Of a stretch of DNA of 64,000 bases, positions 10,671-50,553 are shown piece after piece. Under the pieces are notes generated by a model. The model saw nothing but the letters and a program-made list of their open reading frames with translations, did not search any database and was not told where the DNA came from. The stretch comes from Myxacorys californica WJT36-NPBG1. GTDB lineage: Bacteria > Cyanobacteriota > Cyanobacteriia > Leptolyngbyales > Leptolyngbyaceae. Both the position numbers and the translations under genes were made by a program. The stretch is from contig JAHHHO010000011.1 of the NCBI GenBank assembly GCA_019359315.1, forward strand, positions 1 through 64,000, given 5' to 3'. Each line of letters opens with the position of its first letter. Within the stretch, counting starts at the first letter, position 1.

Positions 10671-10672
10671 AA

Positions 10673-14156: not shown

Positions 14157-14312
14157 ATTGCAACACTGATCGCGCAATTAACAAAACTAGAACATTTGCA
14201 CGAGCAAGAGAATTTACAGAATAATTTTGTACTAAGCTCAAAAAGTTCCGCAAATGCCGCTCCTGAAATGATTCCGCTTCTCTTGTGGATCGGAGTAGCA
14301 CAGGAGGATTTT

Positions 14313-15308: not shown

Positions 15309-15316
15309 GAGGCAGG

Positions 15317-24376: not shown

Positions 24377-24387
24377 GGAGAATAGCT

Positions 24388-25610: not shown

Positions 25611-25616
25611 TTCACC

Positions 25617-27287: not shown

Positions 27288-27297
27288 AGGATCAATC

Positions 27298-28866
27298 ATG
27301 GATGTTTGGTTAGTGACAACTGGAAGTAGTGATGTTCAGTTGATCAACGATGAAGATTGGAGTGATTGGTATCAGGCAATCAAGAAATCACTTCTTAGAG
27401 TGCCATTTAAACCAACGAGAGCAATCAACGATAGTGGAGAACCCTATCGGTTGCCTGCACGAGTACTTGGTATTGCTTACGATCTCTTGCCGGATGAAGT
27501 ACAGCCGATATTGATGCTTCCACTCTTGCAAGACTTTACGCAGGAATTGAAAGCTCGGGAGGTTGTGATCGACCAGATTATTGTTCTCATGAGCGATCAA
27601 GAGAATATTTTCACCGAAGCCGATCGCGAAACAAAACGGTGTCCCTATTGGCAAGATACCTGTCAGCTTTATCCAATTTTAGAGGGTTATTTCCATCAGC
27701 AGTTTCCGGATGCGATTGTTACACCACTTATACTCAAACCACAGCTTTCTGAGCGGGGTTTAGATGATTGGGATGCCGTTTTGGGTTTAGTGCAGCAAGA
27801 AATCAGAAGCTTAGAATTTAAGACTGAACCGCAGGCTATCTATGTAAGCCATCAGGCAGGTACTCCAGCTATTTCTTCGGCTGTGCAGTTTTCAAGTTTG
27901 GCGAGGTTTGGCGATCGCACCCGATTTTTGGTGAGCAGTGAGCAAAGTATCAGACCTTCAGAAATTTTGCCAAGTTCATCTTATCTCAAGGGAATTCGCT
28001 TGCAAGAAGCAAGAACCCTACTTAATCGTCATGATTATACAGGTGTGCAAGCACTGATTGAACCCTACCTGAAAGACGATCACACGCGAATTCTACTAAA
28101 GGCGGCAATTCAGTGGAATTTTGCCAAATTTGATGAGTTTGTAAATGAGTTGCAGAAGTTGTCAGATCAAGAACTTGCTCAGGAGCTAAAGGAGCGATCG
28201 CAGCCTTGGTGGTGGACTGCCTATGAAGCGGCTTATTTGGCTTGGATACGTTTAGAGCAAGGCAACACTGTTGAGGCATTTTTCCATAGTTTTCGATCTA
28301 TTGAAGGAGCATTTTCAAATTGGGGCAAGAAAGTATTTTATGAGTACATTGAAATTGAAAATGATAGAGCCTTTCTACAGCCTTCGATCCTTGAATCTCC
28401 TAATGACTATTTTAAAGACGCAAAATTCAAACAGGACGGTACTACGCCTAAAAATAGCCTTGCTAAGCTAAAGCAAAAGCTTTTAACTTTAGCGGAGAAA
28501 CTTAAAAATATTGGAGAAAAGGATCAAAAGCCAAAAGGCATACTTCTTTTCGGTGAAGACTTATATATTTTATTCAGATCTCAAAAGCTTGATTATGAAT
28601 TATCAGGTTTGAATCGATTTTGGAACTCAGAAGATGGAATTGGAGAAAAGCGCAATAAGAATTTTCATCAATTGCAAGGCTTGTCACAAGCTGAACTACT
28701 AAAAGACTGGGAAGTGGATGATCCAATTGGTTGGGAAAAGCGAATTCTGACGTATCTCAATTTCATTGCAAAGGCAGATCTCCCTAAAGAGTTTGAATCT
28801 TTAGAAGAAGCCAGTTTGATGGCGATCGTGCATCAAAAATTGAAAGATGCAATCACCGAACTCTAG
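27298..28866 (+). CDS. CARF-HEPN ribonuclease (Csm6/Csx1-like), copy 1
   Basis: 522 aa. N-terminal CARF fold starting MDVWLVTTGSSDVQL, with IYVSHQAGTPAISSAVQF as the second ligand loop; C-terminal HEPN site RNKNFH (Arg452, His457). Such proteins are switched on by cyclic oligoadenylate made by Cas10 and then degrade RNA without sequence specificity. ATG 27298 was chosen because the upstream 33 codons overlap cmr6/1 and do not look like protein. Confidence 0.85.
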   Translation: MDVWLVTTGSSDVQLINDEDWSDWYQAIKKSLLRVPFKPTRAINDSGEPYRLPARVLGIAYDLLPDEVQPILMLPLLQDFTQELKAREVVIDQIIVLMSDQENIFTEADRETKRCPYWQDTCQLYPILEGYFHQQFPDAIVTPLILKPQLSERGLDDWDAVLGLVQQEIRSLEFKTEPQAIYVSHQAGTPAISSAVQFSSLARFGDRTRFLVSSEQSIRPSEILPSSSYLKGIRLQEARTLLNRHDYTGVQALIEPYLKDDHTRILLKAAIQWNFAKFDEFVNELQKLSDQELAQELKERSQPWWWTAYEAAYLAWIRLEQGNTVEAFFHSFRSIEGAFSNWGKKVFYEYIEIENDRAFLQPSILESPNDYFKDAKFKQDGTTPKNSLAKLKQKLLTLAEKLKNIGEKDQKPKGILLFGEDLYILFRSQKLDYELSGLNRFWNSEDGIGEKRNKNFHQLQGLSQAELLKDWEVDDPIGWEKRILTYLNFIAKADLPKEFESLEEASLMAIVHQKLKDAITEL

Positions 28867-28956
28867 TCTTCTAGGCGATCGCGCCTCCTGAATTACCTAG
28901 CTGTAACTGGGTTTGACAAAAGCTTCAAACCCAAAAAATCAATGACCTGCATGGCT

Positions 28957-30234
28957 ATGGCAAGCATCATTCTTTCGTTTGTGGGGAATCAAGATCCATT
29001 TTCTGACAACACTGAGCAGGAAGGATCGATCGTTTCTCTAGTCAATCATCTACTGGCTGAGCAACACACCATTAGTCGAGTCATTTTGCTCCATACTGCG
29101 ACAACAGAGCAACGAGCGAGCGATACCAAAACATGGTTGACTGCTACACCTGCGAATTTACTCGCATCCTCGATCGCGATTCTTCCAGTCGATGAGTCTC
29201 TTTCTGAAGATCCGGTTAATTTGCTGCTGGCAGTTCAAGCAGCCCGACAAGGAATCGAATTAGCGCTGCCGTATCTCGGTCTACAAGACACATTGGAGTT
29301 TAACGCCTCCTCAGGGACGCCCGTGATGAAGTCGGCTTGGAGTACGTTGCAAGCGGCGGGTTATGCTCCGCAAAGCCATGTTTGGCAAGTGCGGAACCCC
29401 AAGGAGATGCGAGCCGGTCAGCCGAGAGTGTTCAAAACGGATGTGAATACGTTGAAGAACGAGTTTGACCTAAAGGTGATTCAGCGCCAAATCCAGGACT
29501 ATAACTACAGTGGTGCTTTGATCACCCTGAATGCTAGTCAGCTTGCTACAGAGGTCATTACTGCTTTGTTGCAGTATGGGTACTACCGCATTTCGTTCGA
29601 CTTTGATCAAGCCCATTCTTGTTTAGGTGCGGTTGCAGATCGGGTTGATTGCCGATGGCTGCAAGAAATTGCTCTCCTACGGCAGAAGGATACTAAAGCA
29701 TTACTGCAAGAAGTCTATTTCAATGCGCTAATTCGGCTGAAAGGGCAGAAATACTCGGATTTCTTGATCAGCGTGTTCAGATTACAAGAGCAGGTTTTGT
29801 ACTTTTTGGTACAGGACAAACTAGGGTTGCAGGTGTCAGGCAAGCGATCGCAGCAGATGCAGTCTTGGCAAGCCATTAAACAGATAGATCAAGGGAACCT
29901 CTATCAGCATTTGCAGAAGTATACGTTGCCTAGAGGAGATAGGCTGAACGTTGATCAGTCGGTTAATCGCTATACGCTGTTAGCAATTTTGGAGTATTAC
30001 CCACAGTTTGCGTCGTTGATTCCCTTGATTCAAGGGTTGAATCAGTATTGTGATCTTCGCAACGACTCGGTGCATGGATTTGTAGGCGTCTCATACCTTG
30101 AAGACGAAGCAACGGTGTTAACGACTTTGAGCAAGTTAATGAAACAGGTAACAGGGGTTTCTAAGAGCAATCCCCTCGATCTCCTAAACGAACACATTTG
30201 CAATCTCCTTGATCTCACTTTTCAGCCCTACTAA
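28957..30234 (+). CDS. CARF-HEPN ribonuclease (Csm6/Csx1-like), copy 2
   Basis: 425 aa. CARF region MASIILSFVGNQDPF with FNASSGTPVMKSAW as the ligand loop, and HEPN site RNDSVH (Arg368, His373). It differs clearly from the first CARF-HEPN protein, so the two may answer to different ring sizes of cyclic oligoadenylate (inference). Two upstream ATGs at 28942 and 28951 are possible; 28957 starts at the conserved strand. Confidence 0.82.
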   Translation: MASIILSFVGNQDPFSDNTEQEGSIVSLVNHLLAEQHTISRVILLHTATTEQRASDTKTWLTATPANLLASSIAILPVDESLSEDPVNLLLAVQAARQGIELALPYLGLQDTLEFNASSGTPVMKSAWSTLQAAGYAPQSHVWQVRNPKEMRAGQPRVFKTDVNTLKNEFDLKVIQRQIQDYNYSGALITLNASQLATEVITALLQYGYYRISFDFDQAHSCLGAVADRVDCRWLQEIALLRQKDTKALLQEVYFNALIRLKGQKYSDFLISVFRLQEQVLYFLVQDKLGLQVSGKRSQQMQSWQAIKQIDQGNLYQHLQKYTLPRGDRLNVDQSVNRYTLLAILEYYPQFASLIPLIQGLNQYCDLRNDSVHGFVGVSYLEDEATVLTTLSKLMKQVTGVSKSNPLDLLNEHICNLLDLTFQPY

Positions 30235-30666: not shown

Positions 30667-31650
30667 GTGCGAACTCTCTACGTTTCTCAACAAGGCTGTT
30701 ATTTGTCGCTCAAACAAGAACAGGTCATTATCAAGCAGGGGCAAGCAATCCTGGATCAGGTGCAGCTTCCCCTACTAGAACAGATTCTGATTTTTGGTCA
30801 ATCCCAAGTGACGACTCAGGTAATCCGGGCGTGCTTGCAACAGGATGTCCCGATCGCTTACTTGTCGCGTATGGGGTACTGTTATGGCAAAATCTTGCCT
30901 GTCGAGCGGGGCTACCGCCATCCGTCGCGCGAGCAACAACAATTGCTAGCAGCAGAGCGGCTTGGGGTGGCGCGAACGATTGTCCAAGCAAAGCTAAAAA
31001 ACTGTCGGGTGCTGCTACTGCGGCAACAGCGCCGTAAAGGGTCAGCCGCAATAACTCTCGCTATTCAAAGTCTAGAATATTTGATTCAGCAGGCAGGTCA
31101 GGCCGATAGGATAGAGCGACTGATGGGGCTGGAGGGAGCAGGGGCGGCTAGCTATTTCTCTGCGTTTGGAGATTGTTTAAGCGGAGATGGGTTTGTGTTT
31201 ACAGCTCGTTCTCGTCGTCCTCCTGGCAATCTAGTAAATGCCATGCTCAGTTTTGGCTATCAACTGCTCTGGAACCATCTGCTGAGTTTGATTGAGCTGT
31301 GGGGGCTTGATCCGTACCATGCCTGTTTGCACCAAGGATCTGAGCGTCATGCGGCGCTGGCTTCTGATTTGATTGAGGAGGCACCGATCGTGGATTCGCT
31401 GGTGTTGTATTTGGTGAATCGAGGCGTTGTGAACGTTGAGCAGGATTTTGACTATCACGATGGGGGTTGTTATCTCAATGACGGTGGGCGTAGGAAGTAC
31501 CTGCGGGCATTTTTGCAACGGATGGAGGAACACCTCAAAATCGATGATCAAGAACAGCCTCGATGGGATTTACTCACTCAGCAGGTGAAGGCATACAAGC
31601 AGTTTGTCTATGACCCGACTAGAGCCTATTCTCCCTATCTCATCCGTTAA
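30667..31650 (+). CDS. cas1: CRISPR integrase Cas1, copy 2
   Basis: 327 aa, GTG start at 30667. Catalytic Glu in LEGAGAASYF and His in CLHQGSERHAAL are intact. The third motif reads DLIEEAPIVDSLV, two residues shorter than DLIEVFRAPIVDSLV in copy 1, a clean in-frame loss next to the active site that may weaken or abolish integration. Followed by its own cas2 and array 2. Confidence 0.9.
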   Translation: MRTLYVSQQGCYLSLKQEQVIIKQGQAILDQVQLPLLEQILIFGQSQVTTQVIRACLQQDVPIAYLSRMGYCYGKILPVERGYRHPSREQQQLLAAERLGVARTIVQAKLKNCRVLLLRQQRRKGSAAITLAIQSLEYLIQQAGQADRIERLMGLEGAGAASYFSAFGDCLSGDGFVFTARSRRPPGNLVNAMLSFGYQLLWNHLLSLIELWGLDPYHACLHQGSERHAALASDLIEEAPIVDSLVLYLVNRGVVNVEQDFDYHDGGCYLNDGGRRKYLRAFLQRMEEHLKIDDQEQPRWDLLTQQVKAYKQFVYDPTRAYSPYLIR

Positions 31651-31675
31651 TCTTTAATGCTCGCTATCTATACTC

Positions 31676-31954
31676 ATGCTGCTTTATGTCGTCACGTATG
31701 ATATTCCCTGCGATAAGCGTCGCAAGAAGGTTGCTGATCTGTTGGAAGGCTATGGGCGACGAGTGCAGTACAGTGTGTTTGAATGTGTTCTTACGCCCGA
31801 AAAATATGGCGAACTACGCCGTCGCTTGAAGAAACGGGTGAAGGATGAGGAAGATAGCCTCAGGTTTTACCCGCTGTCGCGCCACACGCTAGCTCAGGTG
31901 GAGGTTTGGGGTGGTTTGCCAGTGGTGCAAGTGCCGGGATCGGTAATCATTTAG
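31676..31954 (+). CDS. cas2: CRISPR adaptation protein Cas2, copy 2
   Basis: 92 aa, collinear with copy 1 and opening LLYVVTYDIPCDKRRKK. The conserved Asp after strand one and the C-terminal strand (LAQVEVWGGLPV) are kept. It partners cas1 copy 2, 25 bases upstream, and leads into array 2. Confidence 0.92.
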   Translation: MLLYVVTYDIPCDKRRKKVADLLEGYGRRVQYSVFECVLTPEKYGELRRRLKKRVKDEEDSLRFYPLSRHTLAQVEVWGGLPVVQVPGSVII

Positions 31955-32153
31955 GTGATCATTTAATTGATAGGTGCGAGGGATAAGGAAAATGGCGGAA
32001 GTGCTTGATCGAGGGTTGCAACCCTCGATGTTTTTCTGGGTAAGGGTTTTATGAAATTGGATGAGCTACAAGTTGCAAACTTGCCGTGTTCAGAATGAAT
32101 CCCTCGCAAACTGCTTCTGGACAACGCTTGGGGTGTGGGTTTCAATAGAGGCA
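31955..32153 (+). promoter_or_regulatory. Leader of CRISPR array 2
   Basis: 199 bp between cas2 and the first repeat. It contains a perfect palindrome CGAGGGTTGCAACCCTCG near 32017-32034, which could be a protein site or a terminator stem. No ORF. Confidence 0.6.
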
Positions 32154-35100
32154 GTCCCCACTCGCTGGGGAAACCACTTGAATGGAAACGCATATTTAAG
32201 CGGAGAGTGCAAGCGTAAATCTGGGGTCCCCACTCGCTGGGGAAACCACTTGAATGGAAACACTATTACGCTTTGTGGGGACTAATACTGATATAAGTCC
32301 CCACTCGCTGGGGAAACCACTTGAATGGAAACTATATGAGAGGCTCTGGGTTGATTGCAACCCATTTACGTCCCCACTCGCTGGGGAAACCACTTGAATG
32401 GAAACTATTGGATTCCTGATAGAAAAGGAGAAGGAGTTTACTTTTTAGGTCCCCACTCGCTGGGGAAACCACTTGAATGGAAACCCATCCGTGTGTATGA
32501 CCCACTCTGCGCCTAGCTCAGGCTTAGCGGGCTTGGTCCCCACTCGCTGGGGAAACCACTTGAATGGAAACTCCAAAAGTCTCGTAAACCTTCCATTGAC
32601 CGTTCTCTAGGTATTGAAGTCCCCACTCGCTGGGGAAACCACTTGAATGGAAACCCTCAACCTTCTCAACCCAAGCAGCAAGAGACTTCTCCTGTTCCAG
32701 TCCCCACTCGCTGGGGAAACCACTTGAATGGAAACTCGTGCAACCTGACTTTGCAGAATGATTCGACACCGTGTTTTAGTCCCCACTCGCTGGGGAAACC
32801 ACTTGAATGGAAACAACAAATGCCCGCATCGTCAAGATTGCAGGGAATGTTCTGTCCCCATTCGCTGGGGAAACCACTTGAATGGAAACAAAACCAGTGC
32901 GTGCCACAGCGTATACCAGGCTCGATTGTCCCCACTCGCTGGGGAAACCACTTGAATGGAAACCTGAGGAGAGCGATAGCGCCAATGCGAAGGGCGAGCA
33001 AGGAGTCCCCACTCGCTGGGGAAACCACTTGAATGGAAACTTGATGCCGTCTACGGTTTCAACTCCTAGAACGGATTTCGCAAGTCCCCACTCGCTGGGG
33101 AAACCACTTGAATGGAAACAGGGAGTTTAGCTTCGGCGCAAAGTATTCAATTAGGTCCCCACTCGCTGGGGAAACCACTTGAATGGAAACTTTTTAACTC
33201 ACTGATAGCAGACTTAAACAATTCTGGTCCCCACTCGCTGGGGAAACCACTTGAATGGAAACAGCGAAGACGAAGCTCTAGAAACATTCATGTACTCAAG
33301 TCCCCACTCGTTGGGGAAACCACTTGAATGGAAACTTCTTCTGGCGACAGCGATCGCGTCGGCGTTTTGATTTGTCCCCACTCGCTGGGGAAACCACTTG
33401 AATGGAAACTTGTGAACCGCAATACATAGGGCAAGGATGATCGAGTCCCCACTCGCTGGGGAAACCACTTGAATGGAAACTTTGTGTGATTTATCGAAAG
33501 TTGTTTGTACCCCAAGTCCTCACTCGCTGGGGAAACCACTTGAATGGAAACCGCCGGTAGAATGCACAACCTAACCGCATTGACAGGGTCCCCACTCGCT
33601 GGGGAAACCACTTGAATGGAAACAATCATCTGAGTATCCTTGTGTAATATTTACATTTTGATCCCCACTCGCTGGGGAAACCGCTTGAATGGAAACAAAT
33701 TACTGTAAGCCGGAAGCAGGGCGAAATCCAGAGGAGTCCCCACTCGCTGAGGAAACCACTTGAATGGAAACATCTTCACCAATGTCTTCAAGATGCATGT
33801 CGCATAGTGTCCCCACTCGCTGGGGAAACCACTTGAATGGAAACATCCGTTGTATTCCGCAAGCTTTGATCGTATCCCGGAGTCGTCCCCACTCGCTGGG
33901 GAAACCACTTGAATGGAAACCGATTCCGTCAATCGCGAGATTCTGAGTTGTGGGTCCCCACTCGCTGGGGAAACCACTTGAATGGAAACATCCTGAACAA
34001 ATAATAAAAAGTGAGATTTAACAAGTCCCCACTCGCTGGGGAAACCACTTGAATGGAAACTCAAGAGAGTGGATGTTTGACTGGTAGTGTCCGGCTTTAG
34101 TCCCCACTCGCTGGGGAAACCACTTGAATGGAAACCCAGCAATCGAGAAGCATGTGTTACCTGTAGCCTCAACCCCGTCCCCACTCGCTGGGGAAACCAC
34201 TTGAATGGAAACAGTCAAATTGGAGTTAATCATCTGAGTATCCTTTTGTGTGTGTCCCCACTCGCTGGGGAAACCACTTGAATGGAAACGTGAAGCTGAA
34301 GGCGCTCCTGCTGAAGGAGCAGCGCCGTCCCCACTCGCTGGGGAAACCACTTGAATGGAAACTCGCTCAAAGGCGCTTTTCTTTGCAGCCGCGATCGCCG
34401 TTTCGGGTCCCCACTCGCTGGGGAAACCACTTGAATGGAAACCTAGCTTGGCTAGCGGTACGCCAACCGATTGAGCGATGAGGTCCCCACTCGCTGGGGA
34501 AACCACTTGAATGGAAACAAAGTACCATCATCATTAACCCATACTGACTGTGAAGTCCCCACTCGCTGGGGAAACCACTTGAATGGAAACCAAAGACAAC
34601 AATGTTGCCGTACATCTTCTTGATTGGGTCCCCACTCGCTGGGGAAACCACTTGAATGGAAACTCGATAAAGGACGGCGCGGGCGGCGCAAATAAAGGCG
34701 TCCCCACTCGCTGGGGAAACCACTTGAATGGAAACAAGTTCTTCAACGTCACGCAGTCAAGTGACGTAATCTCACACGCGTCCCCACTCGCTGGGGAAAC
34801 CACTTGAATGGAAACTTGATGGCTCCTACGGCGTTCTGAACCTCGACTGATTGTTTAGCCAGTACGTCCCCACTCGTTGGGGAAACCACTTGAATGGAAA
34901 CCAGCAAAAGCGAATTGAGTTCTAGCACATCCCCTCGGTAGGTCCTCACTCGCTGGGGAAACCACTTGAATGGAAACAACTTTCCGTTTAGCCATTCAAT
35001 TATCATGGTTCGGGTCCCCACTCGCTGGGGAAACCACTTGAATGGAAACTGTAGCAGACTGTTGAGCGCTCGCTTTCAACGCCGTGTCCCCACTCGCTGG

Positions 35101-35277
35101 GGAAACCGCTTTAATGGAAACTTCTGCAATTAGAGCAAATGCAGGCATAGAGAAACCTAGGTCCCCACTCGTTGGGGAAACCGATTGAATGGAAACTTGA
35201 AGATGACAACTTGACCCTCAAACTGAGTCGTGATGATGTTGGTTCCCACTCGTTGGGGAAACCACTTGAATGGAAAC
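32154..35277 (+). CRISPR. CRISPR array 2: 42 repeats, 41 spacers
   Basis: 36-bp repeat that opens like array 1 (GTCCCCACTCGCTGGGG) but has AACCACTTGAATGGAAAC in its second half. Changes accumulate toward the far end (for example repeats at 33661, 33736, 34866, 34942, 35086, 35161, 35242), so the leader is on the cas2 side. Spacers at 33624 and 34213 share an 18-bp core. No cas6 lies beside either array. Confidence 0.97.
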
Positions 35278-38592: not shown

Positions 38593-41442
38593 ATGAAGCC
38601 CTTACTCCAGACTCTTCTACTTCAAACTCTACCGTCTGACATTGATCCAGTATTGCTGGCTTATGTTGAGACTGTATTACCTGCTGTAGAACAGGAGTTC
38701 GGTCTGATTCCAGTTTCTAACGATGTTAGTCAAACTGAGCAAAGCTTGCTGGTTCACATTCTCAATAGTTTGCTGACTGCCTGGAACTTGTTCCCGTTCC
38801 TATCCTCAAAATTGGCGCTATCAGACAACGAGAAACGATTGCTTTGCTTGAGTCTTATCTTTCAAAATGACAACAGTAAGTGCCAGAGCCGAGAGAATAA
38901 TTCGCCTCCTACGCTTGGTGTTAATGAAACCCTAAAACAGTACCGAGCATTTGGAGACAAACTAAATCTGGCGGCGTTCTGGACTGAGTGGCGTGAGTAT
39001 TTGACAGATATAGTTTATTTAACCCAAAGCACCCAACCGCATGCTTTGTCAATCAAGAAGACTGCTCTCAAAATTCCTGCTAATCGCCTAGAGTTGCCTC
39101 TACGTCCATTGCTTCTGTTTGGGGCGATCGCTGCCCAGCTTACTGATCCCGCTGATATTGTCATCAAACCGGAAGGCAATGTCTTAAAAGAATGCTTGAA
39201 ACGTCTGGGTGTTCAGCATCAACTCACTTATCATCGAGTACGCGCCTGCACAGGACTCTTAACTGAGGGCATCCACAATGCCATTATGCGTTTTGTACAA
39301 CCTCTCGACTGGCAATCCATTCTGTTCTTTGCCCAAGGGATCGTTTATTTGGTTCCCTCTGACAGCAAACTGCTTGATTGCTCAAAACTACAAACCTTTA
39401 TCTGGGAGCAGATTAGTGAGCAGTTAGCAATCAGTATGCTTCGAGGAAAAGTTGGTTTCAAGCGAGATGGCAAAGGGATGAAAGCTGCGCCTCAAACGCT
39501 GGAGCTATTCTCACCAGCTCAATTCATTCGGAATCTACCCACTGTCATTAATGCCTGTGTCAAGAATGAGACGGAACCTGCAACACCTAAACGACTGGCA
39601 AATCTTGACCTTGATCCAACAGATCGAGAATTTTTAGCTTGTGGGGCGGATCTAAGAAGCGATCGCATTGCAGAATTTATCCTTTTCTTGCAGAAGAAGT
39701 TTTTTGGGACTAATCCTGAATTTATCGATCGAGTTCTCGACCAACTGGGCATTCAATCTGCCATCACTCCAGAACAGACTCAAATCTTCTCAAGCGGGGT
39801 AAATAGGGGATGGTATCACGCAGCCGCTTATTACGTCGCCAGTAACCCTCACTTAGACTCAGATGATGTAACGATCAAGCTTCAGGAGATCGCCAATCAA
39901 CTAGTGGACTGGGCTGAAGAGAAAGAACTTTTTCCACCTCAAATCAGTCCGACTCGTGAGGTTTTCAATCAATACTTAGCTCAGTACTTGGAATTCCCAA
40001 GGTGGAATAATTCAGCGCCATCCTTTCAACATGAATTGGCAACGTATGTAGCGGCAAAAACAAAAGCCGCTAAACAACCAATTTGCTCCCTCAGTTCCAG
40101 TGAATTTGACTCAGAAGACCAGCTAGATTCTGTTGTGCTATTCAAGCCTCAGCAGTATAGCAACAAGAATCCCCTCGGAGGGTGGCAACTGAAGCGAGGA
40201 ATTTCTAAACTCTGGTCATTAGAGATGCTTCTGCGGCAGTCTTTCTGGTCAGTTTCCGCAGGCAAGCTGGAAGAGCGACAACCTGTCTTTCTGTACTTTT
40301 TTCCCAGTTTGGTTCATTCCCCTCAGGTCGCAAAAGCGATTCGTATCCTAGTCAATCAACTTAAACGAGTCAATTTGTGGAAAGTTTGTCGATTCTGGCA
40401 GGTACACGGGATGAATGCTAATACCCTGCGCTTCTACTCTTGGCTGAAGTCTGATCCCAGACCAGACGATAATGGTAAACGTGATCTCCCTTTCCTAGCA
40501 ATCACTTACACCACCACAGCTGGTAAAACGACGACACAGGCTTGGATTGAACCTGCTTTTTTGGTATTGGCGCTCTCACTTGTGCTGGGCATTAAAGTAG
40601 TCGCTACGGCAAGTCCAGTACCACTTTATAACAGGAGTAGCGAGTTCCCCGAAACAGTGAAGATAGACGGACCTGCGAGCTTCTGGAGCCTGTTGGGTTT
40701 GCCAACCAGCATTCGGCTGGAAGAGAAGATCCAGGGACGGGTCAAACACCTGAATGATTGGCTCGATCGCCTACTAATTGCTTACAGTATTCACCTTGAC
40801 TGTCAAGCGAATCCCCCTGACTCTCGTTGGCAATTGTTTCCCGGTACAGTGCAGGCTATAACAACTGATGTCTCAGCGATTTTTAGCCTTGCTCATTCGC
40901 ATTTTCAAAGTCTTTCGGATGACAGAGTTCAACGATACTGGCACTTTGCTCAAGTATGGGCAGCAGGAGATTCAAACATGGAACAGCAATTGGAGCTAAC
41001 TCAGCGACTGGTCCAGGAATATCGCGCGTTCTACCAAGTTCATGTAGCGAAAGCAACCCACGCGATCGTGCTCCCGCTGCTAAAGGTTTTAGAGGAGATT
41101 CTTTCAACTCCTAGTGATCTGCCAATTGAAACTCTGATATTACAGACATCGGGACGGTTACATGACGCTTTGAAGCGACAGGAACCCTACAAACGCCCCC
41201 TGATTATGGATCAGTCTTTATCAATTGAGATTCGTGTCAATAACGAGATTCAGGCAATTCAACGATTTGTCACCACTTGCATCAATGATTTATTTTTAGC
41301 TCAGTACAAAGGCGATCGCGCCCTACTGCAAGAACACCGTAACCGAATTAAATCGGGTGCAGAGTTTGCGTATCGTTTACTAGCTATGCAGGAGCCAAAA
41401 CCAAAAACGAAAAAGCAAGAAATTGAAGGAGCACAGATATGA
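38593..41442 (+). CDS. cas10d: Type I-D large subunit Cas10d, HD nuclease degraded
   Basis: 949 aa Csc3/Cas10d. The N-terminal HD region keeps HILNSLLTAWNLF (His55), but where the family has a His-Asp pair it reads IFQNDNSK (residues 89-96), so the metal site is broken. No cas3' gene is present. Loss of cutting is what an RNA-guided transposon needs: Cascade binds the target without destroying it. The rest (Palm-like and helical C-terminus) seems complete. Its stop overlaps csc2 as ATGA. Confidence 0.85.
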   Translation: MKPLLQTLLLQTLPSDIDPVLLAYVETVLPAVEQEFGLIPVSNDVSQTEQSLLVHILNSLLTAWNLFPFLSSKLALSDNEKRLLCLSLIFQNDNSKCQSRENNSPPTLGVNETLKQYRAFGDKLNLAAFWTEWREYLTDIVYLTQSTQPHALSIKKTALKIPANRLELPLRPLLLFGAIAAQLTDPADIVIKPEGNVLKECLKRLGVQHQLTYHRVRACTGLLTEGIHNAIMRFVQPLDWQSILFFAQGIVYLVPSDSKLLDCSKLQTFIWEQISEQLAISMLRGKVGFKRDGKGMKAAPQTLELFSPAQFIRNLPTVINACVKNETEPATPKRLANLDLDPTDREFLACGADLRSDRIAEFILFLQKKFFGTNPEFIDRVLDQLGIQSAITPEQTQIFSSGVNRGWYHAAAYYVASNPHLDSDDVTIKLQEIANQLVDWAEEKELFPPQISPTREVFNQYLAQYLEFPRWNNSAPSFQHELATYVAAKTKAAKQPICSLSSSEFDSEDQLDSVVLFKPQQYSNKNPLGGWQLKRGISKLWSLEMLLRQSFWSVSAGKLEERQPVFLYFFPSLVHSPQVAKAIRILVNQLKRVNLWKVCRFWQVHGMNANTLRFYSWLKSDPRPDDNGKRDLPFLAITYTTTAGKTTTQAWIEPAFLVLALSLVLGIKVVATASPVPLYNRSSEFPETVKIDGPASFWSLLGLPTSIRLEEKIQGRVKHLNDWLDRLLIAYSIHLDCQANPPDSRWQLFPGTVQAITTDVSAIFSLAHSHFQSLSDDRVQRYWHFAQVWAAGDSNMEQQLELTQRLVQEYRAFYQVHVAKATHAIVLPLLKVLEEILSTPSDLPIETLILQTSGRLHDALKRQEPYKRPLIMDQSLSIEIRVNNEIQAIQRFVTTCINDLFLAQYKGDRALLQEHRNRIKSGAEFAYRLLAMQEPKPKTKKQEIEGAQI

Positions 41443-42476
41443 GTGTGTTAGAAGAATTGAAACCTCAATTCCATTCGGCTTTTCCCCGTCTGGCATCCGG
41501 GAAGTATGTTCATGTCTTCCTGGTACGTCACAGTCAATCCTTTCCCGTGTTTCAAACAGATGGTGTCCTCAATACGGCTCGAACTCAAGCTGGCTTGGAT
41601 TCCAAAGATGATAAATCTAGGCAATCGATCAACCGATTGGTCATGTTCAAGCGCAAGCAAGTAACACCCGAACGACTGGTTGGACGACAACTGCTACGAT
41701 CGCTAGGACTAACCAGTGCTGTAGAAGGCGAAGTCAACTTTTGCGAATACAACAGTCAGAAATCGTGCAAGAAATGCCCAGACTGTATTATCTACGGATT
41801 CGGGGTTGGAGACAAAGGTGCAGAACGCTCGAAAGTCTACTCAGACTCAGCGTTCTCGCTCAGTCCTTATGAAACTTCCCACCGCAGTTTCACCTTCAAT
41901 GCGCCGTCAGAAAATGGCACGATGAGTGAAAAGGGAGAACTGCGAAGTTCGATCAACGATCTAGACCATGTCCTGCCGGAAGTGATGTTTCCTAGTGTTG
42001 AAACGCTGCGTGATCCCACATTTGAGGGGTTTATTTATGTGCTGGGCAACCTGATTCGCACGCGCCGCTATGGAGGTCAAGAATCCCGAACCGGGACGAT
42101 GATGAATCACATTGTTGGTATTGCCTTTTGCGATGGTGAAGTTTTCAGCAACTTGTATTTCACACAAGCGCTATATGATGCCTTGAATGCAAAGGGGGAT
42201 ATTTGCGTGACGATCGAGGACTTTCGACATGAGGCAGCAAGGGTGGCAAAAAACTGTCTGAAACAGGAGCCAGTTCGCAGCATCACAATTTTTGGGGCTG
42301 AACTCGATGCCTTGCTCGAAGAAGTGACGGGCATCTATCAGGATGAAGTTAAACAGCGCCTTATTATGACCACGCTTTACCAACAGACCCAGATCTACAG
42401 TGAAAGCTACGGAGCAATTTTTCCTGAGAAGAAGAAAGAGGAAAAGAAAAAAGCACAGCAAGGCTCTTCGATCTGA
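41439..42476 (+). CDS. csc2: Type I-D backbone Csc2 (Cas7d)
   Basis: 345 aa. The start SVLEELKPQFHSAFPR and HVFLVRHSQSFPVFQTDG are typical of Csc2, and a cysteine cluster CEYNSQKSCKKCPDC near residue 105 binds zinc in the family. Forms the crRNA-coating filament. Overlaps cas10d by four bases. The C-terminus is lysine-rich. Confidence 0.9.
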   Translation: MSVLEELKPQFHSAFPRLASGKYVHVFLVRHSQSFPVFQTDGVLNTARTQAGLDSKDDKSRQSINRLVMFKRKQVTPERLVGRQLLRSLGLTSAVEGEVNFCEYNSQKSCKKCPDCIIYGFGVGDKGAERSKVYSDSAFSLSPYETSHRSFTFNAPSENGTMSEKGELRSSINDLDHVLPEVMFPSVETLRDPTFEGFIYVLGNLIRTRRYGGQESRTGTMMNHIVGIAFCDGEVFSNLYFTQALYDALNAKGDICVTIEDFRHEAARVAKNCLKQEPVRSITIFGAELDALLEEVTGIYQDEVKQRLIMTTLYQQTQIYSESYGAIFPEKKKEEKKKAQQGSSI

Positions 42477-42490
42477 GGGATGGTGGAATA

Positions 42491-43276
42491 ATGGTTTTCT
42501 ATTTTTGCCATTTAACCTTGCATGACAATGTTTTCTTTGCCTCACGGGAGATGGGAACTCTCTATGAGACAGAAAAATACCTGCACAATTGGGCACTTAG
42601 CTATGCGCTATTTGAAAGCGCCTACATTCCTAGACCTTATCGATTGGAAGGGGCAGTCGCCCAGCGTCCTACGTATCTAGAGATTGATAGTGAGCAAAAC
42701 CTGTTACATCTGAATCAGCAAGGAATTTATGTTTTTCCCGCCCTGCCGCTTCAGTGGACATATCAGGTCAATACATTCAATGTGTCTCAAGCCTTCTACC
42801 ATCAAAAATCAAGACGGTTGGGCTCGGGAGGACATATTCTCAATTACCCAATCAGCTATGGACGGGCAAAGGAACTCGCAGTTGGCAGCAAGTACAGAAC
42901 CTTCATCATTGCTCCTGCCAAAACGAGAATCCCCCGCTGGATAAGACTAGGCAAATGGTCAGCGAAAATTCGAGTCGAGATCATCCCCATTCCTAAAAGT
43001 GGAATTCAAAGGGCAGCAGGCGAGTATGTTTCTGAGCATCCCCTCAATCCTGTAGATCTCTCTAAAACGACCCGATTATTGCTGTATAACCGGATTGTCA
43101 TGCCACCTTCTAGTCTGGTGAGCCAGGCAAAATTGTTGGGTGACTATTGGGAGATCTCAAAACCAGCTCAGTGGGCTAAATTGTCTGAGTGGTCAAGCTT
43201 AGAGAATTTGCCTGAAACGATTTGTTTGCCAAGAGGAGTTGCTTATGGAGCTAACACTCTCGTTACCACACCTTGA
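42491..43276 (+). CDS. csc1: Type I-D Csc1 (Cas5d)
   Basis: 261 aa. HLTLHDNVFFASREMGTLYE and ALSYALFESAYIPRPYRL are Csc1 landmarks. It caps the crRNA 5' end and helps PAM reading in type I-D Cascade. The start is 14 bases after csc2, and the stop lies 32 bases inside cas6. Confidence 0.88.
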   Translation: MVFYFCHLTLHDNVFFASREMGTLYETEKYLHNWALSYALFESAYIPRPYRLEGAVAQRPTYLEIDSEQNLLHLNQQGIYVFPALPLQWTYQVNTFNVSQAFYHQKSRRLGSGGHILNYPISYGRAKELAVGSKYRTFIIAPAKTRIPRWIRLGKWSAKIRVEIIPIPKSGIQRAAGEYVSEHPLNPVDLSKTTRLLLYNRIVMPPSSLVSQAKLLGDYWEISKPAQWAKLSEWSSLENLPETICLPRGVAYGANTLVTTP

Positions 43277-44069
43277 AGCGACAGCATTGCAGACATTGGT
43301 GATTAAACTCGGGGCTGCGGGCAATGGAGATTTTTCCTTATCCTGTAGCCGAGCACTTCATGCTCAAGTTCTGAAATGGTTTCAGTTAGGACAACCACAA
43401 ATTTCTCAAGCAATTCATGATAGTCAGGAGTCTCCCATCAGCCTCTCAGGACTAATGGGCAAGCGCTTTGGAAGAGTTGTGCAGGAGGGAGATGAATTCT
43501 ACTTTCGGGTTGGGTTACTGAATGGAAATCTGCTTGAACCGTTGTTGAAAGGGCTAGAGCAGTGGGAAAGTCAAGTAGTGCTCCTTTCTAAATTTCCTTT
43601 TGTTATCAAAGATATCAATATGTTGCCAGGTAGCCACTTTCTGGTCGGCTCTTCAGACTACACTCTGCTTGCCCAAATGCCTTCAGACGCAAAAGCGCTA
43701 ACACTAAGGTTCCTCTCTCCGACTAGCTTTAAGCTCGCTCAAAATCGGTACATTCAACCAGTTCCATTGCCCGATTCAGTTTTTGGAAGTTTACAGCGTC
43801 GCTGGAATACCTTTGCTCCCAAAGAGTTACGGTTTCCCAAAACTCAATGGGCGGGATTGATTTGTGACTTTGAAATTAAATCCCAGCGGCTAAATCTGGA
43901 CAGGACAGTTGAGCTGGGTTCCGTTGGATGGGTTAGATACCAGTTTCCCGATTTGCAACAAGCTAGAATTGCAAACGTTTTGGCTCACTTTGCCTTCTTC
44001 TCAGGAGTAGGACGCAAAACGGCAATGGGCATGGGATTGACTCTACTTAAAGGAACAACTCCAAGTTGA
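43245..44069 (+). CDS. cas6: CRISPR RNA endonuclease Cas6
   Basis: 274 aa, two ferredoxin-like domains, with the glycine-rich loop FFSGVGRKTAMGMGLT at the end. ATG 43245 follows AAGAGGAG; a TTG at 43239 is in frame but unlikely. The only cas6 in the window. It should cut the mini-array repeat 230 bases downstream. Whether it also cuts the very different repeats of arrays 1 and 2 is unclear. Confidence 0.88.
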   Translation: MELTLSLPHLEATALQTLVIKLGAAGNGDFSLSCSRALHAQVLKWFQLGQPQISQAIHDSQESPISLSGLMGKRFGRVVQEGDEFYFRVGLLNGNLLEPLLKGLEQWESQVVLLSKFPFVIKDINMLPGSHFLVGSSDYTLLAQMPSDAKALTLRFLSPTSFKLAQNRYIQPVPLPDSVFGSLQRRWNTFAPKELRFPKTQWAGLICDFEIKSQRLNLDRTVELGSVGWVRYQFPDLQQARIANVLAHFAFFSGVGRKTAMGMGLTLLKGTTPS

Positions 44070-44302
44070 GTGTGACCAAAACTAGGGCATAGACTTGTGG
44101 CAGACTGCAGCAAGTTCCAAATCTTCAGAAGGTTTGCTAAAACTATTAAAATGCTTAAGACTCAAGGCTCTACTCATTTCTCATGATATAAATAAGTTCA
44201 ATAATTCCTGGCTTTAAGGGCTGAATCTTAACTTTCCTAGAATCAGCTTTGCCAAAGACATGGTTAAGATTTTGTCACGGTTGGCTCTGAGTATGCTAAA
44301 GG

Positions 44303-44409
44303 CTCACGAAACATCCCCCGGTTTGCGGGACTGAAAGTTCAAGCAACAATACCGCTGGTGTTGCGGCTGTATAACTCGTGAAGCATCTCCCGATTTGCGG
44401 GATTGTAAA
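44303..44409 (+). CRISPR. Two-repeat mini-array of the type I-D system
   Basis: Repeats at 44303-44337 and 44375-44409 (35 bp) flank one 37-bp spacer at 44338-44374. Both keep CCCG-(G/A)TTTG-CGGG as a small hairpin and an end like GGGACTGAAAG or GGGATTGTAAA (probable 5' tag). They differ at several positions, unlike the uniform big arrays, and the second is directly followed by an internal transposon terminus. Position after cas6 ties it to the I-D effector. Confidence 0.72.
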
Positions 44410-44411
44410 AT

Positions 44412-44437
44412 TATACGACTTCACCCATAGGTTGAAC
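44412..44437. repeat. Internal copy of the transposon terminus
   Basis: TATACGACTTCACCCATAGG followed by TTGAAC matches the inverted right terminus at 22 of 26 positions, oriented like a left end. It starts two bases after the second mini-array repeat. The palindromic arms ACGACTT and AAGTCGT recur, as in the left end. Confidence 0.65.
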
Positions 44438-44463
44438 TTTAAGTCGTGATCAGAACACAACAC

Positions 44464-44708
44464 GCGAGAAGAACCAGAATGGCAAGTATTACTGCGATCG
44501 CTTAGTGGAGTGGATTCTAGGACAGAGATTGCCGTTTGATTCACTGTACTACTATGGGAGCGATCGACCGATTCACATCAGCTACGGGTCACTGCACAGG
44601 CGGAGCATTTGGACGTTTACCAGCAACAGAGTACCCACAAAGAAAGGCATTGAAAATTGGATACTGGAAGCGATTGAACATAAGTTTTTAATATTCAATT
44701 GCCCCTAA
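44464..44708 (+). pseudogene. C-terminal gene remnant
   Basis: An open frame encodes CDRLVEWILGQRLPFDSLY, YYGSDRPIHISYGSLHRR and ENWILEAIEHK, which looks like the tail of a real protein, but the upstream part is missing and replaced by the transposon terminus. Family not recognised. It runs convergent with the STAND gene and overlaps its last 21 bases. Confidence 0.45.
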
Positions 44709-47700
44709 TGCCTTTAGTATGGCTTGCTCGACTTCGGTCAACCCCTTCACACCTGTAATGTTCATACCTTCGTAGGGACGATCTCGAACTATCTTTAGAC
44801 ATTCTCCCGTCTCAACATCCCAAAATCGGATAGCATCATCCCGTCCACCCGTTGCTAAAGTTTGACCGTCTATGCTAAAGGCAACGGATAATGCAGGATT
44901 TAAGTGCCCTCTCAAAATACGTAAGCATTGCCCACTACTAACATCCCACAGGCGTACAGTGTGATCAGTACAACCACTGGCAAGAATTTTGCCAGATGGG
45001 CTAAAAGTAACAGAATCAATCCAATCAGTGTGCCCTTGCAAAATATGCAAACATCGCCCTGTATGAATATCCCATAGACGAATTGTGCCATCAGAACAAC
45101 AGCTAGCAATCAAATTTCCCGATGGATCAATTGCTACACCGCGCACCCATTCATCATGTCTCTCAAAGGTGCAAAGACACTCACCGCTATATTTGTCCCA
45201 AAGCTTGAGTAGATGATCACTACCACCACTGACAAGAAAATTGCCTGTTGGATGGAAGGTAATAGACAGTACCCGGTCATCATGTCCTTGCCACAACTTA
45301 TAACATTCGCTATTGTGAATGTTCCAAAGCCGAATTGATCCATCCTCACCACCGCTGGCTAAAGTTTCTTCTGACGGGCTAAAGGCGACTGAGCGCACTG
45401 GTTGAGTATGTCCTTCCATTGTTCTTGTCAGCTCACCAGTTTGAACTTCCCAAAGCTTAATTGTGTGGTCAGAGCTTCCACTAGCCAAGTGTTTTCCATT
45501 GGAGGTAAACGCAATAGAGTTCACCCATTTGTTGTGGCCCTGAAGTGTCTTTAAGTGCTGTCCAGTCTTAGCATTCCACAATCTTATTGTGTGATCAGAA
45601 CTACAGCTAGCTAGCATTGATTCTAATGGGTGAAATGCGACAGCATTAATATTGTTGGTATATCCCTGCAAAATATTTGTACATTCTGTGGTATTCAAGT
45701 CCCAAATTCTAATAGTTTGATCTGAGCCTCCGCTAGCAAGAATGTCTCTTACTGGATTAAAGGCAAGACCAGAAATCCAGCCTGTATGACCTCGTAAAAC
45801 TTTGATGCATTGATAATTGTTTGCATCCCAAATTCTAATTAGCCTGTCGCTGCACGAGCTAGCAATATATTTACCTGATGAGCTAGAAGCAACTGACCAA
45901 ACTAATTCAGTATGACCTTCTAGCGTTTTCAGACATTGACCATCGTGTACTTGCCAAATCTTAACAGTGCAGTCATCGCTACCACTGATCAAAAGAGAAC
46001 CACAAGGGCTGAATTTTACTGAATTAACCGGACCTCCATGTTCTGTTAATGTATATAAACATTGTCCACTTCTGATGTTCCACAGTCGTATTGTACGGTC
46101 GCGGCAAGCACTAGCAACAAACTCTGCTGAAGGGCTAATTGTTAAAGCACGAACCCAGTCTGTGTGCCCCTCAAGGATATGCAAGCATTCTCCAGTCTCA
46201 ACGCTCCAGACTCTTAATGTTTTGTCAGCACTTGAACTAACGATAACTTGCCTATCAGGACTAAAAGCTACAGAGGTCACTTGACCAGTGTGCCCTTGAA
46301 GAGTTTTCAAGCATTGCCCTGTTTGAATATCCCAAAGCCGAATTGTTTTATCAGCACTGCAACTTACTAGCAAATCATTCGTAGTGCTAAAAGCAACACC
46401 ACGCACCCAATTAGTATGCCCTGCAAAAGTCTTTAGCCTTTTTCCACTTTCAGTATTCCACAAAGTAACTAATCCATCCCCACCACCTGTTGCAAGAACT
46501 TCTCCGTCTGAGCTCCACACGACCGAGTAGTTTTCACTAAGAGCGTTGGTGAAAGTAGATTCGATCAGGGTCGCATCAGTAAAATTAGTATGGCGTAAGC
46601 TGGATTTTGAAAAATTAGCACCAATTACTATTACTTGATTGAGATCATGCCCCTCAAGCGCGTAATTGTTTAATTCCACTGCCAATGTCGCTGAATTTCC
46701 ACCAACATATCGGACTTGCTCAGGGGTTCTACCTTGGGTTCTTCTTAGAATCTGTATGAGGGGATCTGTAGAGACTAGCATTGGAACTAATAAGTCTATT
46801 ACAGCTTTTACTAATGGAGCTTTTCCAAAGCTTGATTGTAGTTCCTCAAGTTTTTCACTGATAAAGCTATTCAAAGGTGCGATCGCTTTACTTAGTCCTT
46901 TTTCATCTAATTCACGGCGAAAGTAAGCAGACCAATTATAATCCTGTGGTTCTGCACCTGTATCTAAACAAGACTGTGCTTGTGCTAATTCTATAAAATC
47001 AGGAGCTAATGCTCCCAACTGCGCTGCAAATTTATAGGCAACAAAAAACTCCAACAACGATCGATGCGCTGGCATATAGTCACCATCCGCATTCCGAATC
47101 AGCATCGTCTGCCCCATCATGTCGTAATGCCAGTGATCCAGGTCTTTTTCCTCTTGAACAACCGACCCAAACAGGCGACGAATGCGATCAGGAAACTCTC
47201 GATAGTTGAGACTCATGCGATCACTACTCAACATCTCCCAAGACAACTCACACAGAAAATAGAGCTTTTCTGCCAATGACGTGAACGTGCGCTCCTCCTT
47301 GATATCCCGCTCCATCTTGCGCCGCACTGCATACAAATACACCCGTGACATATCCACAGGTTTGCCTGCCTCAATATCGGGCAACGCTTCTATAATCAAC
47401 TCCGTCATTACTGGACGACGTGCTAAATCTAGAAGCTGCGGATTGTTCATTACCTGTTCCACAGTGTCAGATTCCGCTTGCAGCGACATCACCTGTCGGA
47501 TTTGCTCATCGTCAAATTTTTCTAGTTCTAGCACCTCAAACTGAGGCATTTCTCCAGTTAAATTCGAGACGGATGCCTGTAACTGAGCGTTCAAGAGTGC
47601 CCGTCCTTCTCTCGCTTCTGGAAAATGTTCTGTTCGACAGGTAAGAATAACTTTCGCTCCTGGCACAACGATCTTCGCGAGTTCCCAGAAGTTATTGATC

Positions 47701-49166
47701 ATTTCTTGACGATCGACTCGCGCTGCCATTTCATCAAATCCGTCAAAAATCAGCAGCAGTTTGCCCATGCGATTGAGTTGTTCAAACGCAGAATAAGTCA
47801 GCGATCTCACCTCATGCTTCCGGAAGAAGAACTCTGAGAACAGCGACTCTACGCTCACCGCCTTAGCATAATCTCGTAATGGAATTACCAACGGTAATCG
47901 AGGGCGCTCGACTCCACGCTGTTGAGCTTCTCGATACCGTTTGAGAGCTTGACTCGCATAGTGAAATGCAAACCAGGTTTTGCCTGTGCCAAACTCTCCT
48001 AACACCGAAATATGTTCTTTTGCTGGGTCATCTAGCCATAAATCAATATAGCCATCAATCCAACCATCACGATCGTCATAGCGACTCACGCCGATGCGCT
48101 GCTTCGTGTCGGGATCAACCTCTTCTTTGATGCAAGCCAGTGGAATGTACTTTTGCTCAATGCCCCGTCGCTGAATTTCTGATTCTAGCCAGTCTAGATA
48201 GCCACCAAAGTCTGCATCTTGATCAAGCAGTTCATCGAATGTGTAACAACCCAGGTCGTGATTCTCTTCTTTCTCAACTTCCTCCCGTGCTGCTCGACTA
48301 ATGCGCCGTGTTGTTACCAACCAGCCTTCATCGGCTCGTTGTGCTTCAACCGATTGTCGCACTGCCCTGATATCTCCTAATCCTGCTTCACCATCAATGC
48401 CGCGCACCAAGATGCGATCGTACCGCCCGCGCCGCACCGGAATATCGATAATCCATTCAAAATAATCGTCTTGCCATTCCTCATGCAACTCAAATCGGTA
48501 TCCCAAGGTTTCAAACCAGCCTTTCATCTGCTGGGCAAGCGCGAAGGCTCGGCACTGGCTTTCCTGAAACTGTCTTGCTTGAATCGATGCAGGAGTTTTC
48601 ATGGTTCCAGTTCCAGGCAACGCCGGATAGTTCTGAGCCGCTAATCGCGCCATCTCCGTCCGCAGGGCTTCGAGTGTCGGCAGCCGATGCAATCGCTCCT
48701 GGATACTGCCAATTTGTCGGTGCAAGGACTCAAGCTTGTGATTTGCTAAGACTTCAGCCGGAGTGCGGGTGCGTTTGGCAACTTCGATAAATACTGCCGC
48801 AAACTGGTAAAACTCCTGTCTCGCGTCAATCCCTAGCTCTCGAATTTGATCGCCTAACGTGTTTCCAGAGAGAAACGTCTCGCCTTCTTTGAGCAACAGA
48901 CTTGGGTTATTCTGATCCAGTGCTTTGCGAAAAATGGCTTGAATTTCAGCGTGTCGGAACATCTCCAAGACTACCCTTGGCTTGCCGAGACCATATTCCA
49001 CCAGCGTGTATTGGTAAACGGCTGTAAAATCAGCGGGCGGATGATCTGGCTCGAGGTTCAGTTGCTTCAACAGCTTAATCACAAGCTCACTGCGCTGGAG
49101 CTTATCTTGTACGACTGGAGTTGCGAACCCGACAATCATGTCAATCAACTTAGCCAACTCAAACAC
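44688..49166 (-). CDS. STAND NTPase: REase-like, NACHT, pentapeptide, WD40
   Basis: 1492 aa. Helical N-terminus (1-190); a restriction-endonuclease-like domain about 205-330 (FEWIIDIPVRRGRYDRILVR; catalytic residues not certain); NACHT ATPase with Walker A GEFGTGKT (390-397) and Walker B LLIFDGFDEM (471-480); a short pentapeptide stretch (NFSKSSLRHTNFTDATL); then 14 WD40 repeats, enough for two seven-bladed propellers. This build matches anti-phage STAND sensors, in which the C-terminal repeats detect and the N-terminal nuclease acts. GTG start with AGGAG. It is probable defence cargo; a signalling role as in other cyanobacterial WD40-NACHT proteins is possible. Confidence 0.85.
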   Translation of the reverse strand: MFELAKLIDMIVGFATPVVQDKLQRSELVIKLLKQLNLEPDHPPADFTAVYQYTLVEYGLGKPRVVLEMFRHAEIQAIFRKALDQNNPSLLLKEGETFLSGNTLGDQIRELGIDARQEFYQFAAVFIEVAKRTRTPAEVLANHKLESLHRQIGSIQERLHRLPTLEALRTEMARLAAQNYPALPGTGTMKTPASIQARQFQESQCRAFALAQQMKGWFETLGYRFELHEEWQDDYFEWIIDIPVRRGRYDRILVRGIDGEAGLGDIRAVRQSVEAQRADEGWLVTTRRISRAAREEVEKEENHDLGCYTFDELLDQDADFGGYLDWLESEIQRRGIEQKYIPLACIKEEVDPDTKQRIGVSRYDDRDGWIDGYIDLWLDDPAKEHISVLGEFGTGKTWFAFHYASQALKRYREAQQRGVERPRLPLVIPLRDYAKAVSVESLFSEFFFRKHEVRSLTYSAFEQLNRMGKLLLIFDGFDEMAARVDRQEMINNFWELAKIVVPGAKVILTCRTEHFPEAREGRALLNAQLQASVSNLTGEMPQFEVLELEKFDDEQIRQVMSLQAESDTVEQVMNNPQLLDLARRPVMTELIIEALPDIEAGKPVDMSRVYLYAVRRKMERDIKEERTFTSLAEKLYFLCELSWEMLSSDRMSLNYREFPDRIRRLFGSVVQEEKDLDHWHYDMMGQTMLIRNADGDYMPAHRSLLEFFVAYKFAAQLGALAPDFIELAQAQSCLDTGAEPQDYNWSAYFRRELDEKGLSKAIAPLNSFISEKLEELQSSFGKAPLVKAVIDLLVPMLVSTDPLIQILRRTQGRTPEQVRYVGGNSATLAVELNNYALEGHDLNQVIVIGANFSKSSLRHTNFTDATLIESTFTNALSENYSVVWSSDGEVLATGGGDGLVTLWNTESGKRLKTFAGHTNWVRGVAFSTTNDLLVSCSADKTIRLWDIQTGQCLKTLQGHTGQVTSVAFSPDRQVIVSSSADKTLRVWSVETGECLHILEGHTDWVRALTISPSAEFVASACRDRTIRLWNIRSGQCLYTLTEHGGPVNSVKFSPCGSLLISGSDDCTVKIWQVHDGQCLKTLEGHTELVWSVASSSSGKYIASSCSDRLIRIWDANNYQCIKVLRGHTGWISGLAFNPVRDILASGGSDQTIRIWDLNTTECTNILQGYTNNINAVAFHPLESMLASCSSDHTIRLWNAKTGQHLKTLQGHNKWVNSIAFTSNGKHLASGSSDHTIKLWEVQTGELTRTMEGHTQPVRSVAFSPSEETLASGGEDGSIRLWNIHNSECYKLWQGHDDRVLSITFHPTGNFLVSGGSDHLLKLWDKYSGECLCTFERHDEWVRGVAIDPSGNLIASCCSDGTIRLWDIHTGRCLHILQGHTDWIDSVTFSPSGKILASGCTDHTVRLWDVSSGQCLRILRGHLNPALSVAFSIDGQTLATGGRDDAIRFWDVETGECLKIVRDRPYEGMNITGVKGLTEVEQAILKALGAIEY

Positions 49167-49933: not shown

Positions 49934-49969
49934 TTTCCGCAGACATCCTACCGTTCATAGGGAGGGGTT

Positions 49970-50004
49970 GCAGAGAGCCTATTCCGGTTTACGGGACTGT
50001 AAAG
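49970..50004 (+). repeat. Stray copy of the mini-array repeat
   Basis: TTCCGGTTTACGGGACTGTA and the following AAG match the hairpin and tag of the mini-array repeats 5.6 kb away (CCCCGGTTTGCGGGACTG). The stem base changes are partly compensated. It stands alone about 510 bp from the right end and is followed by ATTGCGGATCACTGCTGCTC, which could be a guide. Isolated repeats near an end are known in other CASTs as home-site guides. Confidence 0.6.
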
Positions 50005-50362: not shown

Positions 50363-50518
50363 GTTCAGTTTATGCCTCTATCTTTGTACTGTCGTTCAAC
50401 TTATGATTAAAAACTTGGAAGACCTAAGGTTAAGACAGCATGGTGGGATCAGCTTTTTCTCCCATCTTTGCTCAACTTATGGTTCAAACAATGTTCAACT
50501 TATGGTTAAAGTCGTACA
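50363..50518. repeat. Right transposon end with four TnsB-type sites
   Basis: Direct copies at 50363 (GTTCAGTTTATGCCTCTA), 50394 (GTTCAACTTATGATTAAAAA), 50470 (CTCAACTTATGGTTCAAA) and 50493 (GTTCAACTTATGGTTAAAG), the last running into GTCGTACA at 50511-50518. The ACA end is canonical for Tn7-like elements, and multiple sites in one direction are the usual TnsB binding layout. Confidence 0.8.
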
Positions 50519-50553
50519 AGCCTAAGCTGTCCAACCCGGACAACTTAGGCTTG
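50517..50553. repeat. Palindrome across the right boundary
   Basis: CAAGCCTAAG and CTTAGGCTTG pair over ten bases, with a second stem GTCC-GGAC inside. It straddles the element's last bases and the tail of the fossil tnsD, so it could be a terminator of that old gene or a scar of rearrangement. Confidence 0.55.

Follow-up and report, generated by a model that had tools for sequence, protein, structure and literature searches.

A probable guide module of a type I-D CRISPR-associated transposon, with an inactivated Cas10d nuclease site, in Myxacorys californica

Four genes on the plus strand, in the order cas10d, csc2, csc1 and cas6d, occupy positions 38593-44069 of a 64,000-nucleotide stretch of the genome of the cyanobacterium Myxacorys californica WJT36-NPBG1 (contig JAHHHO010000011.1, positions 1 to 64,000; this whole stretch is called the window below). 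By PADLOC they are type I-D Cascade genes (Cas10_Id, Cas7d, Cas5d, Cas6d): the 949-residue large subunit Cas10d (38593..41442), the backbone protein Csc2/Cas7d (41439..42476; Cas7d, 439.6 bits), Csc1/Cas5d (42551..43276; Cas5d, 300.7 bits) and Cas6d (43239..44069; Cas6d, 367.4 bits). PF10040, the one Cas6 model run across the genome, found this Cas6d as its sole match. The C-terminal portion of Cas10d matches Cas11d in a phmmer comparison with the solved structure, and its internal Met796 (position 40978) coincides with the Cas11d start. Both these cas genes and a complete set of transposition genes are enclosed by a Tn7-like element at 7138-50516, and the HD nuclease site of Cas10d is inactivated (Q91, N92, A178, Q182).

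The original prediction was that this Cas10d reads IFQNDNSK where a His-Asp pair is expected, and alignment bears it out. Residues 90-97 are FQNDNSKC, at a place where nuclease-type Cas10d proteins have LHDY(N/D)K. In the phmmer alignment to Synechocystis Cas10d (7sba chain I, 911.7 bits), 'slifqndnskc' lies opposite 'gitlhdydkhc'. The Synechocystis site is described as H81, H115, D116 and D210, with H214 as a further histidine pointing toward it (PMC9123187). Counted on the phmmer alignment, these correspond in the window to H55, Q91, N92, A178 and, for H214, Q182. Three of the four published residues are replaced and H55 alone is kept; with H214 counted, four of five are changed. The same proposal had named an intact motif elsewhere in the domain as the finding that would overturn it; we looked for one and found none within the HD domain of Cas10d, so that the wider domain offers no rescue.

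A search for Cas10d matched 24 of 388 genomes, and we compared 24 Cas10d proteins from 23 cyanobacterial genomes in one alignment, which omits genome G316 (a C-terminal fragment only) and counts G015 twice. Tn7-like genes are linked to six of the proteins: that of the window, the chromosomal one of G015, and those of G092, G174, G103 (TniQ plus a fragment of TnsAB) and G162 (pieces at contig ends). The HD pair is broken in all six, and is intact in all 18 proteins without linked Tn7-like genes. The letters at the pair are QN in the window, QG in G015, G103 and G092, NP in G174 and HL in G162; in the last, the pair's His and the Asp at 178 survive, and the pair's Asp is lost. As a reference for the rest of the protein we took 142 invariant columns, fixed in the 18 nuclease-type proteins with at least 15 of the 18 having a letter. 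Given that 23 of these 142 columns are changed in the window Cas10d, the probability of its four changes among the five site columns is 0.0024. Across the six linked proteins, changes affect 26 of the 30 cells of the site, compared with 95 of 795 in the other invariant columns; since the rows are related, a P value for this contrast is no more than indicative. Because the rest of Cas10d is conserved, the loss of the HD site is selective.

The helicase gene follows the same pattern. Of the 18 nuclease-type loci, 17 have a cas3' gene next to Cas10d, the exception (G346) being a contig of 3.4 kb; none of the six linked loci has one there. For the window's genome, a 128-contig draft with a listed completeness of 99.98%, it had been predicted that no helicase partner would be present, and a genome-wide search for a separate type I-D cas3' upheld this: the best match to TIGR03158 (cas3_cyano) reached 23.9 bits, below the cut-off of 69.1, in a model that is positive in 19 of the 24 Cas10d-bearing genomes. 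Cas3_HD (PF18019) likewise had no match in this one genome. PF22590 gave a single match exactly at its cut-off (27.0 bits, on contig C29); since the same model is positive in all 14 control genomes, this is a generic helicase signal. All six linked loci share one state, a dead HD site, no adjacent cas3' and linked Tn7 genes. Absence of cas3' from the whole genome is not universal among them, because G174 carries a copy on another contig. In G015 the HD-dead, linked Cas10d coexists with an HD-intact but truncated Cas10d accompanied by cas3' on another replicon.

A tree was built from 23 of the aligned rows, G262 (484 aa) being left out as well, with the HD columns included. It places the six linked proteins on one side of a branch with 91/98 support, recovered in 94% of 200 bootstrap trees, and a single loss of the HD site would therefore be sufficient.

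The six proteins also share a second signature, which lies outside the HD domain. Residue 573 is Tyr in 17 of 17 nuclease-type proteins and changed in all six transposon-linked ones; residue 575 is Tyr in 17 of 17 and changed in five of six; residue 682 is Asp in 16 of 16 and changed in the five linked proteins that have a letter there. The sixth, G092, has none because its gene is frameshifted and its row contains the N-terminal frame only. From these substitutions one could speculate that the patch marks a lost contact with Cas3' or a gained contact with TniQ or TnsC, an idea we put forward as a long shot. The signature may be no more than the shared ancestry of one clade. Cas6 is reported to be dispensable in a type I-D CRISPR-associated transposon (CAST), which led the authors to invoke a novel, unknown mechanism joining Cascade to TniQ (PMC11406308).

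The transposition genes form a complete operon on the minus strand at 7265-13429. They encode a fused TnsA-TnsB transposase of 918 aa (10673..13429; PF08722, PF00665 and PF09299; 980.6 bits to 9bw1 chain M, labeled 'Integrase'), the AAA+ regulator TnsC (9549..10679; TniB/AAA; 354.9 bits to TnsC of PDB 8fcu), a short TniQ of 308 aa that is the predicted Cascade partner (8651..9577; PF06527; PDB matches to 8v32 TnsD and 8fcu TniQ) and a longer, TnsD-like protein of the TniQ family, 453 aa, that is the predicted tRNA homing selector (7265..8626; PF06527 and HTH_3; TniQ_IB, 214.7 bits). In the alignment to 9bw1 chain M, TnsAB has what we take to be its DDE and TnsA residues. Between the window's TniQ and its best match in each of the other five linked loci, identity is about 54-58%. 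For TnsC and TnsAB the respective identities are about 72% and 70% with G015, 58% and 61% with another contig of G162 (C23), and only 33-43% with the others.

The boundaries of the element, 43,379 bp apart as given by ends at 7138 and 50516, are near-identical inverted ends flanked by a 5-bp target-site duplication, CAAGC, read from the sequence at 7133..7137 and 50517..50521. The left end (7138..7212, plus strand), compared with that of the G015 element, consists of the terminal TACGACTT and three TnsB-like sites; the right end (50393..50516, minus strand) has three TnsB-like sites and the terminal AAGTCGTA. From 7138 the left end reads TACGACTTTAACCATAAGTTGGACA, and an inverted copy with one change lies at 50492-50516. 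The genome has three copies of the core end motif, all of them within the element. The attachment-site gene is a tRNA-Leu (7025..7106, plus strand; ARAGORN), and the left end begins 31 nt downstream of it; the matching distance in G015 is 32 nt. A further TnsB-like site lies inside the element, directly 3' of the type I-D array (44414..44438, plus strand). This TACGACTT-like site was considered as the right end, as it adjoins the array, and was rejected, being oriented like the left end and lacking a matching duplication; the true right end lies at 50516. Among 11 loci examined in relatives for an empty site, the right flank was nowhere joined to the left flank; in G027, of the same genus, the left side and tRNA-Leu are the same, with an unrelated gene downstream. 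For the G015 element, a search of a further 40 kb revealed no right end.

Just beyond the right end, at 50562-50649, lies a C-terminal remnant of another TnsD (57% over 28 aa), which suggests an earlier insertion of a Tn7-like element at this tRNA-Leu. A sequence similar to this remnant is found beside the tRNA-Leu of G029 (locus L093), which matches the TnsD remnant only.

The guide component is small. A minimal type I-D CRISPR array of two diverged repeats and one spacer (44301..44410, plus strand) lies 3' of cas6d, and its repeat core is common to the G015 array, which has five repeats with the same kind of core. A solo type I-D-type repeat near the right end (about 49967..50004, plus strand) is possibly a delocalised guide. 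Separate homing guides are described for published type V-K and I-F3 CASTs (PMC11406308).

We conclude that the region is, with high confidence, the guide module of a type I-D CAST, in which a nuclease-dead Cascade would steer the insertion of the Tn7-like element at 7138-50516. Gene content, the lost active site, the ends, the target duplication, the tRNA spacing and the co-occurrence in relatives are observed directly. The original prediction had taken a dead HD site without a helicase as the state expected for guided insertion; at the level of sequence, the tns genes, the ends, the CAAGC duplication, the distance to tRNA-Leu and the recurrence in six loci all support it. By analogy with published I-D CASTs, from which complex assembly, the protospacer-adjacent motif (PAM), guided insertion and the division of labor between TniQ and TnsD are carried over, Cas10d, Csc2, Csc1 and Cas6d, with a Cas11d that is probably translated internally, would assemble as Cascade and bind CRISPR RNA. 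Cascade would then open matching DNA at a PAM without cutting it, since the HD site of Cas10d is lost and Cas3' is missing. TniQ would bridge the bound Cascade to TnsC, TnsC would recruit TnsAB, and the element would be inserted beside the target. In a proposed second route, the longer TnsD would direct homing to a site at a set distance 3' of tRNA-Leu, where the present copy lies.

Several observations weigh against this conclusion. The present copy occupies the site of TnsD homing, where no guide is needed, and it therefore gives no evidence of guided insertion. No protospacer for the array spacer or for the region after the solo repeat was found in the organism's own genome, in plasmids or in the loci examined, and no target of the array spacer in phages or viral contigs (the latter searched with an exact 22-base pattern). 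Besides the match to itself, the spacer searches returned weak, chance-level matches only, and a target of the possible solo-repeat guide was likewise not found in the window's genome. As the two repeats of the array differ, the guide may be decaying. Finally, the cas genes lie 25 kb from the tns genes, with cargo between them.

The leading alternative is that the cas genes are passive cargo, a decaying type I-D defense system that lost its HD site and cas3' by drift and plays no part in transposition. The element is indeed rich in defense cargo, including a type III-B module and a NACHT-WD40 protein, and the array is reduced to one spacer with diverged repeats. However, the reading frames of all four effector genes are open and their conservation is strong, the changes are concentrated at the HD site (26/30 versus 95/795), and six Tn7-linked loci show this state, with a TniQ about 54-58% identical to that of the window in each of the other five, though TnsC and TnsAB diverge more. 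We consider this explanation improbable. Less probable still, to the point of being hard to credit, is a Cascade with a dead nuclease that does no more than bind DNA, repressing genes or blocking rival elements, while transposition proceeds through TnsD alone; the one-spacer array and the homing-site position, which do not call for guided insertion, would fit it. A dual-function system combining interference with transposition, for which CyCAST provides a precedent as a published I-D CAST with intact HD residues and Cas3' (PMC10293859), can be dismissed almost entirely, given the lost HD residues and a genome in which no I-D Cas3' was found.

A second type I-D arrangement is present in G092, G174 and G103 (loci L078, L079 and L081), where TniQ adjoins Cas10d and the neighboring tRNA is tRNA-Ala rather than tRNA-Leu; their TnsAB proteins are about 40% identical to that of the window (a fragment only, in G103). 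The occurrence of tRNA-Ala as well as tRNA-Leu loci suggests that TniQ and Cascade move jointly between Tn7 lineages. Promiscuity of TniQ partners is mentioned in a review (PMC11406308).

The element also carries cargo. A cas1-cas2 pair with a CRISPR array of 26 repeats (14196..17683, plus strand; Cas1 by PADLOC, cas2 read from the sequence) and a second such pair with an array of 42 repeats (30667..35277, plus strand; cas2 named from its sequence only) flank the type III-B module (21663..30234, plus strand; PADLOC), which comprises Cas10b/Cmr2, Cmr3, Cmr4, Cmr5, Cmr6 and two CARF-HEPN Csx1 proteins. The two cas1-cas2-array modules are separate, and their repeats differ by a few bases. A limited literature search of titles and abstracts returned no report on type III-B cargo in CASTs, and we claim no novelty for it. 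A protein of 212 aa with neither a PADLOC nor a Pfam match (36733-37371) adjoins an HNH protein. The NACHT/WD40 protein (44688..49166, minus strand; Pfam) includes an inactive-endonuclease-like domain (NA-iREase1) and is 71% identical by tblastn to the copy in the G015 element. From reading the open reading frames, insertion sequences are also present.

The element has close relatives. That of G015 has a Cas10d 73% and a TnsAB 70% identical, the same tRNA-Leu, the gene order TnsAB-TnsC-TniQ-TnsD and NACHT-WD40 cargo; it differs in its five-repeat array and in an in-frame stop in TnsD. Its Cas10d and TnsAB are merely about 4 kb apart, so there is no III-B module between them. The Synechocystis sp. 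PCC 6803 I-D Cascade (7sba, 7sbb) resembles that of the window in a Cas10d alignable over residues 47-934 and a conserved Cas11d start, and differs in its intact H81-H115-D116-D210 site (PMC9123187). TnsAB, TnsC and TniQ/TnsD have relatives in a type I-B2 CAST with solved structures, which carries a I-B Cascade where the window has I-D. We take the solved structures matched by these proteins to be those of PmcCAST.

I-D CASTs, included in the current classification (PMC12669027), are described as very few and as sharing a TnsAB fusion, a tRNA-targeting TnsD and natural Cas10 inactivation (PMC11406308). McCAST (Tn7575), from Myxacorys californica and functional in E. coli, is like the window element in its I-D Cascade, TnsA-TnsB fusion, TniQ plus TnsD and tRNA site, and both have non-TGT ends and a naturally inactivated Cas10 (for McCAST, as described in PMC11406308). 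Compared by description only, the window element may be McCAST itself, a sibling of it, or one from another species. CyCAST (Tn7745, from Cyanothece sp. PCC 7425) shares the I-D Cascade, TnsAB, TnsC, TniQ, TnsD and tRNA-Leu homing, but has an active HD site, Cas3' and its own cas1-cas2-cas4, whereas the window element has a dead HD site and no cas3'; other reported I-D CASTs are said to lack Cas3d and to have an inactivated Cas10d (PMC10293859).

That Cas10 is naturally inactivated in I-D CASTs has been published before, and our finding is a correct rediscovery of it; the window may hold a new member of the published kind, apparently intact and well bounded. The analysis contributes most by giving the element's exact limits, a clean separation of linked from unlinked Cas10d proteins, and the second Cas10d signature. 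The element appears complete: both ends and the duplication are there, the tns and cas genes are open, and the terminal TnsB sites are nearly identical. It could as such be a good source of a working programmable insertion system. If the patch at residues 573, 575 and 682 is what we speculate it to be, it would point to where the link between Cascade and TniQ should be sought, a second surface for transposase recruitment. Overall, the comparison of 24 proteins presents the loss of the HD site as a clean switch that follows linkage to Tn7 genes.

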